Below, one piece after another: positions 6,219 to 34,465 of a DNA stretch of 61,384 bases. Within the stretch, counting starts at the first letter, position 1, and each line of letters opens with the position of its first letter. The position numbers and the translations under genes are program-made. The notes beneath the pieces were generated by a model. The model was not told where the DNA came from, ran no database searches, and saw nothing but the letters and a program-made list of their open reading frames with translations. The DNA is from Opitutia bacterium (GTDB taxonomy: Bacteria > Verrucomicrobiota > Verrucomicrobiia > Opitutales > Opitutaceae): NCBI GenBank assembly GCA_016190985.1, contig JACPPI010000021.1:1-61384 (forward strand), read 5' to 3'.

Positions 6219-6294
6219 GCCGCTTTAGCTCAGTTGGTAGAGCGACTCATTCGTAATGAGTAGGTCGTCGGTTCAAATCCGACAAGCGGCTCCA
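6219..6294 (+). tRNA. tRNA-Thr (anticodon CGT)
   Basis: A complete cloverleaf is visible: acceptor GCCGCTT paired with AAGCGGC, D arm GCTC-AGTTGGTA-GAGC, anticodon stem ACTCA/TGAGT around loop TTCGTAA (anticodon CGT, reading ACG), T arm GTCGG-TTCAAAT-CCGAC, discriminator T and an encoded CCA at 6292-6294. Confidence 0.97.
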
Positions 6295-16354: not shown

Positions 16355-17170
16355 CTATCCGGTGCAATCCCGTCCTTGTTTTTTTCCCGCCCGCGCCTCG
16401 CTGGCCTGGAACCAGCGGTAGAAGCTGACGCCGAAGGCGATCATCGCCACGCTCATGCCGACGAGTTTCATCATCGCGCCGGCGAGGAGCTGGTCGGCCG
16501 CGGCGGACAGGCCGTCCACGATGCGCGGGGCGTATTCGTAGGTCGGATAGAGGACGTCGGTGGAGAACGTGATGTAGGCGAAGACCGGCGTCATGCCGAT
16601 GAGGACGGCCAGCAGGTAGAGCATCTGCCAGGCGTAGCTCGCCGGAGGAAATTCCTTCGACGGGCTGAGCAGCGGCCACCAGTAGAACAGCGCCGCGCCG
16701 AAGAACGAGAAGTGCTCGGCGATGTGGACGGGGCGATTTTGCAGCGCGAGGTCGTAGAACGACGGCAGGTGCCAGACCGTGATGACGGCGGTGTAGAGCA
16801 CGCCGCACACGAGCGGATGAGTGAGCACCCGCAGGATGGGGCGCAGGCCCGGCCGGCCCGTGAGCGGCCGGACCAGCCAGTCGGGCAGGCCGAGCAGAAA
16901 GAGGACGGCGGCGGGATAGAGGATGAGCTGGTGCTGCAGCATGTGCGCGCTGAGCAGGTAGCGCTCGCCCGCCTGATCAAGCGGCGAGCCCACGGCGAGG
17001 TAGAAAATCACGAGCGCGGCGTAGAACTTCACGGCGTGCCGGCGCGGATAAAGTGCGCCCGGAGCGAGCTGCTCGCGCCACGGCCCGGTCAGGATGGCGT
17101 AGAGCCAGCCGAGGAAGATGAGCCCGCCGATGAGGAACGGCTCATTGTGCCAGTGGGTCCAGTCGATCAT
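16355..17170 (-). CDS. ctaG: CtaG-type cytochrome oxidase assembly membrane protein
   Basis: The 271-residue protein has about seven membrane segments and the caa3_CtaG signatures: FYLAVGSPLDQAGERYLLSAHMLQHQLILYPAAVLFLLGLP, HIAEHFSFFGAALFYWW and a late DQLLAGAMMKLVG. Members help assemble caa3-type oxidases, probably in copper insertion at CuB. This is the Bacillus-type CtaG, not the Cox11-type protein that shares the name. It closes the minus-strand ctaC-D-E-F-G series, separated from ctaF by a palindromic repeat. The Lys/Arg-rich tail faces the cytoplasm. Confidence 0.88.
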   Translation of the reverse strand: MIDWTHWHNEPFLIGGLIFLGWLYAILTGPWREQLAPGALYPRRHAVKFYAALVIFYLAVGSPLDQAGERYLLSAHMLQHQLILYPAAVLFLLGLPDWLVRPLTGRPGLRPILRVLTHPLVCGVLYTAVITVWHLPSFYDLALQNRPVHIAEHFSFFGAALFYWWPLLSPSKEFPPASYAWQMLYLLAVLIGMTPVFAYITFSTDVLYPTYEYAPRIVDGLSAAADQLLAGAMMKLVGMSVAMIAFGVSFYRWFQASEARAGKKQGRDCTG

Positions 17171-17191
17171 GGGATGAGCATTTCCATAGCA

Positions 17192-17263
17192 GTCATTCTG
17201 AGCGAAACGAAGAATCCAGCGGTGGCGAGCTTCCTGTGGATTCTTCGCTGCGCTCAGAATGAC
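17192..17263. repeat. GTCATTCTGAGCG palindrome, copy 1
   Basis: GTCATTCTGAGCG then AACGAAGAATCC on the left face GGATTCTTCGCTGCGCTCAG and AATGAC on the right, with about 22 nt between. It lies 22 nt upstream of the ctaG start codon. Three more copies occur here (24324, 28307, 36154). Confidence 0.88.
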
Positions 17264-17324
17264 CGGTGGCGGAAATAATAAAGCCGCGCTGGTGGCGCGG
17301 CTTGAAGCGGGGTGGGAACAGGTC

Positions 17325-17690
17325 TCAGGCGAGGGCCACCCGGGCGAACTCCAGCGCGACGGCGGTCAGCGGCTTGGCGGCGTCGGCGCCGAAGAGGTGG
17401 AGCAGGGCCCACATCGTGCCGCCGGCGAGCACGAGGCCGATGAAGAACAGGATCGTGCAAAAGACCTTGTCCCAGCGCAGGTGCATGAAGAAGAAGATGA
17501 CGAACATGAACTTCACCGCCGAGAGCAGGCAGAGGGCCGTGACGACAAACCACTTCACGATCGGCAGGTAGACCAGCACGACCTCCACGCCGGTGATGAC
17601 GGCCAGGATCATCGCGACCTGGATGTAGAAGTGGAATTTGCTCGGCTCGGAGTGGCCGGCGGCGGGAGAAGCGGCAGCGGGGGCAGACAT
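17325..17690 (-). CDS. ctaF: Cytochrome c oxidase subunit IV
   Basis: The 121-residue protein has three membrane segments (about 25-45, 50-72, 80-100) and the subunit IV core VVTALCLLSAVKFMFVIFFFMHLRWD, where the H-L-R-W-D end is characteristic of the CtaF/CyoD group. It stabilises the oxidase and has no redox centre. The N-terminus is Ala/Pro-rich and cytoplasmic. It is the fourth gene in the oxidase series, separated from ctaE by a 72-nt hexamer array. Confidence 0.88.
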   Translation of the reverse strand: MSAPAAASPAAGHSEPSKFHFYIQVAMILAVITGVEVVLVYLPIVKWFVVTALCLLSAVKFMFVIFFFMHLRWDKVFCTILFFIGLVLAGGTMWALLHLFGADAAKPLTAVALEFARVALA

Positions 17691-17706
17691 GGGGAGAGAG
17701 TTGGAT

Positions 17707-17778
17707 AATCTTTCTCGTTCTCGTAATCGTTATCTTAATCTCAAGAGAACGATTAGGATTAAGAGAATGAGAACGATT
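17707..17778. repeat. Mirrored 6-nt array, 6+6 units
   Basis: The sequence splits exactly into hexamers: AATCTT, TCTCGT, TCTCGT, AATCGT, TATCTT, AATCTC, then AAGAGA, ACGATT, AGGATT, AAGAGA, ATGAGA, ACGATT. The second six are the reverse-complement vocabulary of the first six, so the whole is a periodic hairpin. It fills the ctaE-ctaF gap. Confidence 0.85.
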
Positions 17779-17780
17779 GG

Positions 17781-18617
17781 TTAGAGATACTCCAGGAGGT
17801 AGACGGCGGTGAAGATGATGATCCAGACGATGTCGACGAAGTGCCAGTAGAGGCCGATGGCCTCGACATCGATGGCGTTTTTCTCGCCGAACTCGACCGC
17901 GCCGCGGGCCCGGCCGAGGGCGACCATGGCGGCGAGGCCCACGAGGCCGACGCCGAACTGCGCCGCGTGGTGCGACAGCATCCGGCCGAGCGGCAGGCCG
18001 TAGATGACCTCGATCATGCCCGGGACGAACCAGATGAAGGCGACGCCGAAGGTGACCGCGACGGCGAGCAGATGGAGGAGGTTCATCACCAGGCCGGCGC
18101 CGCTGGCGGGCTTGAAGGTGCGCACATACATCATGCCCAGCAGGAGCACGCCGATGGCGACGTGGGTGCCGTGGGTGCCGGTGAGGGTGTAGAACGTGGA
18201 GCCGAAGATGCTGTTCGACAGCGTCATCTTCTTCACCGCGACGAAGTGGGTGAACTCGTAGACCTGGCCGCCGAGGAAGATGCAGCCGAAGAACATCGTG
18301 CCGAGCAGCATGGTGCGCGTGCTGCGGATGTTGCCGCGCTGGATGGCGTTCACGGCGAGCGCCATGAGCAGCGAGGACATGAGCAGGATGAACGTCGAGA
18401 AGGACGTGAGCTCGATGTTGAACACCTGCGTCGGGACCGCGTTGCCCGGGGGCGGGTTGAGGCGGTAGACGAGGTGGGTCGAGATCAGCGTGCCGAAGAA
18501 CATGCAGTCCGAAGCGAGGAAGGCCCACCACAGGAGCTTCTTGTTTGGGATGCCCGTCGACGTGGTGTGGTCGTGATGGTGGTCGATGTGACCGGCGGTG
18601 GCCGCGTGGCTGCTCAT
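17781..18617 (-). CDS. ctaE: Cytochrome c oxidase subunit III, with extra membrane segments
   Basis: Family signatures are KLLWWAFLASDCMFFGTLISTHLVYR at the first helix, the His-rich FTLTGTHGTHVAIGVLLL-like segment, and the final GLYWHFVDIVWIIIFTAVYLLEYL. Most five-helix CtaE proteins have about 200 residues; this has 278. The excess, about residues 178-250, holds two added hydrophobic segments (LLHLLAVAVTFGVAFIWFVPG and FGVGLVGLAAMVALGRARG) between the conserved HGTHV helix and the final helix. The N-terminus is His-rich (HIDHHHDHTT), possibly metal-binding. The start is preceded by a four-unit heptamer array and no Shine-Dalgarno sequence. Confidence 0.9.
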   Translation of the reverse strand: MSSHAATAGHIDHHHDHTTSTGIPNKKLLWWAFLASDCMFFGTLISTHLVYRLNPPPGNAVPTQVFNIELTSFSTFILLMSSLLMALAVNAIQRGNIRSTRTMLLGTMFFGCIFLGGQVYEFTHFVAVKKMTLSNSIFGSTFYTLTGTHGTHVAIGVLLLGMMYVRTFKPASGAGLVMNLLHLLAVAVTFGVAFIWFVPGMIEVIYGLPLGRMLSHHAAQFGVGLVGLAAMVALGRARGAVEFGEKNAIDVEAIGLYWHFVDIVWIIIFTAVYLLEYL

Positions 18618-18624
18618 GGCTTAG

Positions 18625-18652
18625 TTGAAAGGTGAAAGTTGAAAGGTGAAAG
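18625..18652 (-). repeat. Four 7-nt units in the ctaE leader
   Basis: On the coding strand: CTTTCAC, CTTTCAA, CTTTCAC, CTTTCAA, a 28-nt G-free array in the ctaD-ctaE gap, ending 7 nt before the ctaE ATG. Confidence 0.75.
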
Positions 18653-18662
18653 CCAAGGCGGC

Positions 18663-20672
18663 TTAGTGGTGGTCGCCGCGGGACTCGGTGACCTTGCCGT
18701 CGGCGCCGAGGTGGAGGTGGTAGCCGCCGGGGCCCTCGAGGGACCAGAGGTAGCAGGCGGCGAGCAGGATGACGCCGCCGGCGATGCCGAGCGGGAGATG
18801 GGAGGCGAAGATCTGGTTGCCGAACATGACGACCGGGTGGTGGAGCTGGGCCATGTTGTAGGCGCCGATGAGCAGGCCGAAGGCGGCGATGATCGGATAC
18901 CACGACTGGTCGGGCATGTGGATGCCGCCATGGGATTCCTCGGCCTGGATGAGGGCCGCCTTCTCCTTCGCGATCTCGTCCTTGTGGGTCTTCTCATACC
19001 ACCAGGCGTCGCGGGCATGGACGCTCGGGATGGCGTCGAAGTTGTGCTCAGGCGGCGGGGAGGGGATGGACCATTCCAGTGTGCGGCCGTCCCACGGGTC
19101 GTTGCCGCACTTCTGGCCCTTGAAGAGCGACCAGACGAGCACGGCGAAGTAGGTGAAGATGCCGACGCCGAGCAGGTAGGCGCCGCAGGTGGCGAAGAGG
19201 TTGCCCTCGTTCCAGCCCATGTTGGAGTCGTAGGTCCAGGTGCGGCGGGGCATGCCGTTCAGGCCGAGGAAGTGCATCGGGAAGAACGTGCAGTTGAAGC
19301 CGACGAAGATGAGCCAGAACGAGACCTTGCCCCAGAACTCGGGCACCATCCGGCCGAAGAACTTCGGGAACCAGTAGTGGATGGCGGCGAGCAGCGCGAA
19401 GGTGGCGCCGCCGATGAGCACGTAGTGGAAGTGCGCGATGACGAAGTAGCTGTCCTGTTGCTGGGCGTCGGCCGGCGCGGCGGAGTGCATGATGCCGGAG
19501 AAGCCGCCGAGCATGAACATCCAGATGAATCCGAGGGCGAACATCATCGGCACGCGGGTCATGATCTGGCCGCCCCAGAGGGTGCCGATCCAGTTGAAGA
19601 TCTTGACGCCGGTCGGGACCGCGATGGCCATGGTGGCGAGCGCGAAGGCCGCGGTGGCGACGTTGCCCAGGCCGGTGGTGAACATGTGGTGGCTCCACAC
19701 GCCGAAGCCGATGAAGCCGATCGCCACGCCCGAGAACACGATGATCGGGTAGCCGAAGAGCGGCTTGCGCGAGAAGGTCGGGAGGATCTCCGAGACGTAG
19801 CCCATCGGGGGCAGGATGAGGATGTAGACCTCGGGGTGGCCGAACACCCAGAAGAGGTGCTGCCAGAGAATGGGCTGGCCGCCGCCGGAAACCTCGAAGA
19901 AGTTCGTGCCGAAGTTGCGGTCGAACATCACCTCGACCAGCGCGATGGCGATGGCCGGCAGGGCGAGGATGAGCAGGAAGCTCGTGACGAGCGCCATCCA
20001 GGTGAACACCGGCAGGCGCATCATCGTCAGGCCCGGGGCGCGCAGGTTGATGATCGTGACGATGAAGTTCAGCGACGCCACGATCGAGGAGAGGCCGAGC
20101 ACCTGGATGCCCAGCACCCAGAAGTCGGTGGACAGGTCGGGCGTAAAGGCCTTGGAGGTCAGCGGGGCGTAGCCGAACCAGCCGACATCGGGCGCGCCGC
20201 CGAAGTTCATGTGGGGGAAGACGTGCGAGATCCAGCCGACGTTGAGCAGGATGGCGCCGACGACCCAGACCCAGAGCGAGAAGGAGTTGAGGCGGGGGAA
20301 GGCCACGTCGCGCGCGCCGACCTGGATCGGCACGAGCAGGTTGAAGAACGCGGCGTTGAGCGGCATGACCGCGAGGAAGATCATCGTCGTGCCGTGCATC
20401 GTGAACAGCTCGTTGTAGAGCTGCGCGCTGATGAAGCGGTTGTTCGGCACGATGAGCTGCGTGCGGATCATCAGGGCCTCGAGGCCGCCGATGAGGAAGA
20501 ACAGGATGGCGAAGCCGCCGTAGAGCATGCCGATGCGCTTGTGGTCGACGGTGGTCAGCCAGCTGACGAGGCCGGTCTTGGCGGTCGGCCGGGCGAACAG
20601 ATCAAAGGTCGCCTTCTTCGCCGGGGCGCGGGCGCCGCCGGTGTAGGCGGATTTTGCGATAGCTTCAGCCAT
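18663..20672 (-). CDS. ctaD: Cytochrome c oxidase subunit I
   Basis: The 669-residue subunit holds heme a, heme a3 and CuB and reduces O2 while pumping protons. Seen: VDHKRIGMLYGGFAILFFLIGG, LFTMHGTTMIFLAVMP (heme a His), WVFGHPEVYILILPPMG with the cross-linked His-Tyr pair, the HHMFTTGL CuB histidines, and SYFVIAHFHYVLIGG with heme ligands. The C-terminal 130 residues add two membrane helices (YPIIAAFGLLIGAYNMAQ and LGIAGGVILLAACYLWSLEG), as in caa3-type SoxB/CtaD forms. It follows ctaC by 18 nt. Confidence 0.96.
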   Translation of the reverse strand: MAEAIAKSAYTGGARAPAKKATFDLFARPTAKTGLVSWLTTVDHKRIGMLYGGFAILFFLIGGLEALMIRTQLIVPNNRFISAQLYNELFTMHGTTMIFLAVMPLNAAFFNLLVPIQVGARDVAFPRLNSFSLWVWVVGAILLNVGWISHVFPHMNFGGAPDVGWFGYAPLTSKAFTPDLSTDFWVLGIQVLGLSSIVASLNFIVTIINLRAPGLTMMRLPVFTWMALVTSFLLILALPAIAIALVEVMFDRNFGTNFFEVSGGGQPILWQHLFWVFGHPEVYILILPPMGYVSEILPTFSRKPLFGYPIIVFSGVAIGFIGFGVWSHHMFTTGLGNVATAAFALATMAIAVPTGVKIFNWIGTLWGGQIMTRVPMMFALGFIWMFMLGGFSGIMHSAAPADAQQQDSYFVIAHFHYVLIGGATFALLAAIHYWFPKFFGRMVPEFWGKVSFWLIFVGFNCTFFPMHFLGLNGMPRRTWTYDSNMGWNEGNLFATCGAYLLGVGIFTYFAVLVWSLFKGQKCGNDPWDGRTLEWSIPSPPPEHNFDAIPSVHARDAWWYEKTHKDEIAKEKAALIQAEESHGGIHMPDQSWYPIIAAFGLLIGAYNMAQLHHPVVMFGNQIFASHLPLGIAGGVILLAACYLWSLEGPGGYHLHLGADGKVTESRGDHH

Positions 20673-23271: not shown

Positions 23272-23295
23272 GGGAAAATCGGAAAAAGGATCTGT

Positions 23296-23367
23296 CTGGG
23301 ACTCAGAAAATCAGGGAAACAGAGACGCTGATTGGTTCGTTTCCTGAGTTCCTGATTTCCAGATTTA
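23296..23367. repeat. 8-nt array, nine units
   Basis: The ctaB to DUF420 gap reads in octamers CTGGGACT, CAGAAAAT, CAGGGAAA, CAGAGACG, CTGATTGG, TTCGTTTC, CTGAGTTC, CTGATTTC, CAGATTTA. Eight of nine begin CTG or CAG. The first and last parts can pair (CAGAAAATCAGGGAAAC with GTTTCCTGAGTTCCTG), giving a hairpin. Total 72 nt, the same as the hexamer array. Confidence 0.75.
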
Positions 23368-33048: not shown

Positions 33049-33127
33049 AAGACCGAAGGACTGAAGGACTGAAACAGGCCGGGTAAATTTCAGCCTTTCA
33101 GCTTTTCCGCCCTTCAGTCTTTCTTCC
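33045..33127. repeat. Mirrored 8-nt array, 4+5 units
   Basis: CTGAAAGA, CCGAAGGA, CTGAAGGA, CTGAAACA, an 11-nt G-rich centre, then TTTCAGCC, TTTCAGCT, TTTCCGCC, CTTCAGTC, TTTCTTCC. The second block is the reverse-complement vocabulary of the first. It fills the lysS-lolC gap and ends 3 nt before the next ATG. Confidence 0.85.
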
Positions 33128-33130
33128 GCC

Positions 33131-34366: not shown

Positions 34367-34369
34367 TGG

Positions 34370-34465
34370 CTGAAAGACTGAATAGCTGAAAAGCTGACGA
34401 ACCCATCCATTGCGCGCCCCCATCGAAACCATGTCAGCCCTTCAGCCTTCCAGTTTTTCAGTCCT
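34370..34465. repeat. Mirrored 8-nt array running into lolD
   Basis: CTGAAAGA, CTGAATAG, CTGAAAAG, CTGACGAA (34370-34401), then a 32-nt centre containing the ATG, then TCAGCCCT, TCAGCCTT, CCAGTTTT, TCAGTCCT (34434-34465). The second block is coding: it supplies the first residues after Met of LolD. Confidence 0.78.

Follow-up and report, generated by a model that had tools for sequence, protein, structure and literature searches.

Many bacteria carry short palindromes dispersed over their genomes. ERIC/IRU elements, for example, are short imperfect palindromes that lie in transcribed intercistronic space, contain no gene of their own and share one consensus among copies; to our knowledge, no internal hexamer grammar is known for them or for MITE-like palindromes. 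The STRR heptamers of cyanobacteria form degenerate intergenic arrays of short units, and we know of no description of these as mirrored pairs.

REPs are dispersed extragenic palindromes of 20–40 bp that are tagged by GTAG or CGTC, mostly have stems of 6–9 bp and are linked to RAYT genes. They are described as lying mainly in unidirectional and convergent gaps near the 3′ end of the upstream gene, at a varying distance from the downstream one, and Opitutus terrae is reported to be rich in GTAG repeats (PMC3733652). In Beggiatoaceae, the exact heptamer TAACTGA is repeated in direct orientation (169 sets, with one indirect repeat, reported for one genome); the repeats lie mostly just upstream of start codons and are patchily distributed over phyla (PMC4679880). 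The palindromic microsatellite repeats of Fusarium mitochondria consist of mononucleotide A/T runs, are optional between species and are thought by their authors to be mobile (PMC7218506). Structure-related sequence features in prokaryotes have also been described (PMC4060949). Our literature search, which covered few subscription journals, found no report of mirrored hexamer arrays.

The window analysed here is a stretch of 61,384 nt from an Opitutaceae genome (contig JACPPI010000021.1), and the gap between its respiratory genes ctaE and ctaF carries an array of this kind (Table 1). As the original prediction held, positions 17707–17778 can be read off as exactly 12 hexamers in two parts: six of the NNTCNT type (AATCTT, TCTCGT, TCTCGT, AATCGT, TATCTT, AATCTC), followed by six of the reverse-complement type (AAGAGA, ACGATT, AGGATT, AAGAGA, ATGAGA, ACGATT). 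Divisibility by six had been claimed for the gap itself; the 72 nt are those of the array, and the gap is 90 nt long (17691–17780). The whole array fits hexamers without remainder because its loop is 0 nt. Its G+C content is 33%, against 66% in the window. The best two pairings of the arms span 26–28 nt at 77–79% complementarity, and the array folds with a z-score of −3.08, 1/200 shuffles being equally good. ATCCAACTCTCTCCCC comes after the array in transcript direction. The G+C-rich stem and T-run of an intrinsic terminator were not found in the G+C-poor array, and the region 17600–17900 contains no terminator-like site. The array has no Rfam match at gathering score, the sole match in the window being a tRNA at 6219–6291. 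Pyrimidine-rich tracts (CCTCCC, CTCCCC), and not Shine-Dalgarno-like words, appear often to precede start codons directly in many gaps of the genus, as at 17691–17706.

Table 1. Positions of the ctaE-ctaF array, its flanking genes and the period-8 arrays in the window.
Feature	Position	Strand	Description
Array, left arm	17707..17742	+	6 hexamers of NNTCNT type, the sixth being AATCTC
Array, right arm	17743..17778	+	6 hexamers, reverse-complement vocabulary (ANGANN)
Whole ctaE-ctaF intercistronic gap	17691..17780		90 nt
Upstream gene, ctaE (name from the original prediction)	17781..18617	-	Pfam COX3; stop codon 2 nt from array
Downstream gene, ctaF (name from the original prediction)	17325..17690	-	Pfam COX4_pro; start 16 nt from array
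Period-8 mirrored array	23272..23364		Inverted symmetry scored
Period-8 array, GACTGAAG words then CTTTCAGC words	33049..33130		Mirroring seen by eye in the sequence
Purine half of period-8 array, GCTGAAAG words	34367..34409		Mirroring seen by eye; pyrimidine half just past 34409

The lag-6 score of the ctaE-ctaF gap (22) is the highest among 280 gaps in a 461-kb sample of its own genome, and a score of 14 was reached by none of 1,400 dinucleotide shuffles (five per gap). The octamer arrays that had been named at 23296, 33045 and 34370 also exist, as period-8 gaps, with the symmetry scored for the first and judged by eye for the other two. The pyrimidine half of the third falls inside a called frame, the start of which was probably miscalled. 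A further short-period array, of TTGAAAGGTGAAAG words, occupies the gap at 18618–18662 between ctaE and the next upstream gene (18663–20672), and its lag score of 17 is the second highest in the sample. Also, a palindrome, TCATTCTGAGCGAAACGAAGAATCC ... GGATTCTTCGCTGCGCTCAGAATGACC, is found at 17190–17265, between a Caa3_CtaG gene (16355–17170, Pfam) and ctaF, and recurs in further gaps of the same genome and of its relatives.

The ctaE-ctaF array has many counterparts, for which we use the family name HexA: two arms, usually of six hexamers, with the grammar WMTCNT and a free loop of 0–52 nt. BLAST gave 43 matches to the array in its own genome, at about 25 places, and matches in 15 of 57 genomes including this one, 11 of them among the 21 of the genus. 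A sequence-only profile built from 27 elements matched 15/21 genus genomes at E ≤ 0.01 and gave 59 matches in the own genome, where one palindrome may count twice. Across the class, it matched at most 52 of 286 genomes at E ≤ 1e-4, an upper bound because the profile matches in two of them (G277 and G246) are plain hexamer runs. (G000 denotes the own genome, other G numbers the genomes of relatives and L numbers loci.)

Both arms could be parsed in 75 elements, which were found by similarity to the window element in a search that favours intact grammar. Exactly six units were present in 46 left and 50 right arms, with a range of 3–10, while the loops vary in length and are multiples of six in 23/75, zero loops included. 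Among 844 units from 74 elements (L042 was left out), T at position 3 (829), C at position 4 (837) and T at position 6 (714) are near-fixed; position 1 is A or T in 768 and position 2 is A or C in 821, mostly as AA or TC, and position 5 varies freely. Unit preferences, counted from the outer end towards the loop, are the same in both arms, namely AATCGT, TCTCGT, TCTCTT or TCTCGT, two mixed positions and TCTCTC. The consensus of 27 elements begins with AATCGT, ends with ACGATT and has arms of about 36 nt.

Like ERIC/IRU and MITE-like intergenic palindromes, HexA is an imperfect intercistronic palindrome without its own gene. It shares with STRR the degenerate short-unit intergenic array but is mirrored. 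A microsatellite or STRR proper, with direct repeats only and a free unit number, was ruled out as a description, since the array is mirrored and the unit number of the family clusters at six. The TAACTGA heptamers likewise form many short-unit intergenic arrays, but as described they are unmirrored and have no interchangeable alphabets (PMC4679880). The Fusarium repeats combine microsatellite and palindrome as HexA does, but in A/T mononucleotide runs and in a mitochondrial genome (PMC7218506).

HexA elements are placed mostly between co-directional genes (61/69, with 5 convergent and 3 divergent), as compared with 247 co-directional, 67 convergent and 96 divergent among 410 background gaps of 60–400 nt (divergent, p = 8e-5; convergent versus co-directional, p = 0.009). 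Six of the 75 elements, at a contig edge or inside a weak called frame, were omitted, and genes were called with a simple purpose-written caller, not a standard tool. The elements lie at a median of 4 nt behind the upstream stop and 16 nt ahead of the downstream start, and the window element at 2 and 16 nt. HexA thus resembles REPs, as these are described, in being extragenic, in its few divergent gaps and in its closeness to the stop codon, and this agreement with the published placement was counted for an insertion origin (PMC3733652). Unlike REPs, it has long arms made of hexamers, a consensus without GTAG or CGTC tag and few convergent gaps, and it is not found as pairs beside Y1 genes.

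Y1 genes were detected in 11/21 genomes of the genus and HexA in 11/21, with both in 9. HexA without Y1 was seen in G003, a single contig with no Y1 match at E ≤ 1e-10, and in G010, which is 82% complete. None of 20 regions around Y1 matches (gene called in 18) had a HexA pair beside the Y1/RAYT match. These regions gave no support to a RAYT link, and the co-occurrence in genomes is suggestive only. Three of 35 Y1 flanks (L340, L355, L358) passed a weak mirrored-and-periodic cut, against 0.1 in shuffles, and by eye these contain no gap alphabet. Single hexamer Y-runs without a mirrored partner were noticed near a Y1 transposase gene at L353:738–761 and inside the called gene at L350:1764–1793.

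The HexA element is itself an inverted repeat. Near-identical copies, a hallmark of MITEs, were not found in six genus genomes with 7–16 parsed elements each: the closest two elements within a genome have identities of 0.87–0.91, so no recent copy is seen among these. A similar-core element occurs in 40 places of G142, whose family within the class is a different one, with 77–93% identity to the query copy. Its copies (L360–L368, L380–L389) consist of a hexamer core with outer inverted ends like TAGAGCGTTTTGCGTTTAATC, the ends having been placed by eye. This element is probably a MITE, resembling one that moved recently, and its likeness to HexA may be due to convergence of low-complexity sequence.

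The age of HexA elements can be read from shared junctions. At the ctaE junction, G000 and G012, another species of its genus, agree at 67/75 gap positions, with 76% agreement at fourfold sites (51% expected by composition). In transcript direction, the G012 gap has the left-arm unit types in the same order, three of the units differing, each at position 5 alone; its right arm is one unit short and its loop is longer. Most of this reads as an inherited array that has changed by substitution, apart from the gain or loss of a single unit. Similarly, the lpd-junction gaps of G013 and G012 are identical at 75/84 aligned positions, while the fourfold sites of lpd agree at 58% (52% expected). Unrelated HexA elements agree at 77% on average (95th percentile, 83%). 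After three of 18 orthologous pairs had been dropped for an arm with fewer than five parsed units, 6/15 exceeded this percentile and the other nine resembled random pairs. Therefore, some elements are plainly inherited, and other shared junctions keep only the grammar, which re-insertion could explain.

In the same junctions of other species, the words often differ. In other genera, the ctaE-ctaF gap measures −4 to 18 nt in 17/22 loci (L121–L142) and 25–88 nt in five, so most other Opitutaceae in the comparison have a very short gap here. Within the genus, G000 and G012 both have HexA in this gap. It is filled with GTGAAA hexamers in G004, G007 and G009 and with period 7–8 words in G015 and G018; G013, G011 and others have heptamer words on one side only, and in G017 the gap is 1 nt long. 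A mirrored-and-periodic cut was passed in 6/15 species. The words also differ between species at the lpd (disulphide oxidoreductase), trpS (class I tRNA synthetase) and MoxR-type ATPase junctions, least at trpS, and the lpd junction has a mirrored array in 11/13 species, in about five alphabets. (The gene of the third of these junctions is not a dehydrogenase subunit, as Pfam assigns it to the MoxR-type ATPases.) A survey was made of 40 stretches, taken from the surroundings of the ctaE, lpd and MoxR loci, together with part of the window; 42 of its junctions, with 412 gaps, are common to at least five species. Among its 279 gaps of 30–300 nt, 70 combined mirroring with periodicity, whereas shuffles gave 1.7; the best lags were 6 (22), 7 (19), 10 (11), 9 (9), 8 (7) and 5 (2). 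HexA had already been seen at the junctions that guided the choice of stretches, so these rates are not genome-wide. The alphabets, labelled by eye, are scattered over a four-protein tree. The proposed class with shared architecture and different sequence is thus real: real gaps far exceed shuffled ones in short-period mirrored arrays, and orthologous gaps carry different mirrored alphabets. Because architecture and not sequence is shared, similarity-based repeat finders would file the families apart or miss them. Operon spacers with several unrelated mirrored alphabets, which differ from species to species at one and the same junction, represent a natural experiment on what a spacer needs, and comparisons of junctions let one ask what keeps the arrays in place: their structure, tolerance of insertions or a reader protein.

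Within an element, the arms are matched no more closely than arms taken from different elements. Real and permuted arms fold at −31.9 and −33.9 kcal/mol in 66 elements, at −35.0 and −34.6 in five elements found without BLAST, and at −33.1 and −33.6 in 18 distant elements. Covariation between arms lies below all 500 shuffles (27 elements). Mismatches on the mRNA strand of 55 arrays comprise 46 G-U and 82 A-C (p = 0.002), opposite to selection for pairing, and HexA alone gives 28 and 33. There is an apparent excess of mismatch between the arms of one element (100/300 matches at N5 against 118.5 expected; folding P = 0.001, 66 elements). However, in a simulation of the element search, such selection alone accounts for about 2–10 of the observed deficit of 17, and eight distant elements show none, so we state only that arm matching is no better than chance.

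We lean, with some reserve, towards the array being a member of an old dispersed family of REP/MITE-like palindromic insertions that has been kept in operon junctions. An insertion origin is the best reading because the similar-core element of G142 looks like a MITE. Nested arrays, in which one mirrored array lies within the loop of another (seen by eye), also agree with what insertions would give. HexA elements would have arrived as non-autonomous insertions mobilised in trans, and would have survived where neither gene nor promoter is broken, that is, in tiny operon spacers, later to be kept or replaced by others of the same kind. In the transcript, the palindrome would fold away the spacer that separates the stop codon from the start codon. 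The insertion could be tolerated for this reason, and the downstream gene might also have its expression tuned in this way. A possible though rather unlikely alternative is a functional intercistronic RNA hairpin (an mRNA stabiliser, attenuator or stop-start coupler), with the architecture selected and the alphabets differing by species. The position of elements close behind stop codons and often near the next start would suit such a hairpin, but as most ctaE-ctaF gaps elsewhere are short, an insert that is tolerated there cannot lie far from either codon. At junctions with HexA in some species, 13/38 of the gaps that lack it are mirrored and periodic (by eye, one of these, G015 at the third junction, is a worn HexA), compared with 32/250 at the remaining co-directional junctions (p = 0.003), but restricting the count to gaps ≥ 30 nt weakens the excess to p = 0.10. 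Likewise, the frequent mirroring at the lpd junction and an occupancy by mirrored arrays that differs among 30 co-directional junctions beyond 2,000 permutations point to the hairpin, but these counts still include shared ancestry and overlapping genes that are unable to hold an insert. Selection on an RNA hairpin obtains no support from G-U against A-C mismatches, covariation or folding with swapped arms.

It is improbable that the arms are binding arrays for a putative repeat-reading DNA- or RNA-binding protein, with one reader per alphabet. The near-invariance of positions 3, 4 and 6 beside a free position 5, the A/T and A/C preferences of positions 1–2 without transition drift, and a grammar kept at shared junctions where 9/15 pairs are no more alike than random ones would be expected of such a reader, but the similarity search favours intact grammar and re-insertion could account for the nine pairs. 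The origin put forward in the original prediction, with hexamers multiplied by slippage in place and then copied in inverted orientation, has become very hard to believe. It would account for the presence of both tandem and inverted repetition and for the one-unit difference between the right arms of G000 and G012, but unit counts cluster at six, both arms share their outer-to-inner preferences, arms are no more alike within than between elements, and about 25 places in the genome show one and the same grammar. We also give little credence to the idea that operon junctions of the genus are conserved slots, repeatedly rewritten by some activity with mirrored arrays. Their alphabets, interchangeable and with periods of 6–10, would be swapped, whereas the site and the architecture would stay; in the boldest form of this idea, each alphabet may have its own writer or reader. 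Such an activity might, for example, add copies of a single degenerate unit to the two ends of a break; the result would be a repeat and then its reverse complement, with the arms drawn independently.

Mirrored decamer arrays of the type CCACGAATGGACACGAATG ... CATTCGTGTCCATTCGTGG, with the variants CACTAATG, CACGGATG and CACAGATG, were observed at L085:16858–16957, L090:19269–19347 and other places. Similar decamer words may also occur in other phyla. At the junction (L338_6,L339_6), a decamer pair surrounds an element of the ACAGGAG/CTCCTGT type in G013 (L331) and G018 (L332), and in G000 (L329) it surrounds a CATTCTGAACG palindrome, the left outer half being worn.
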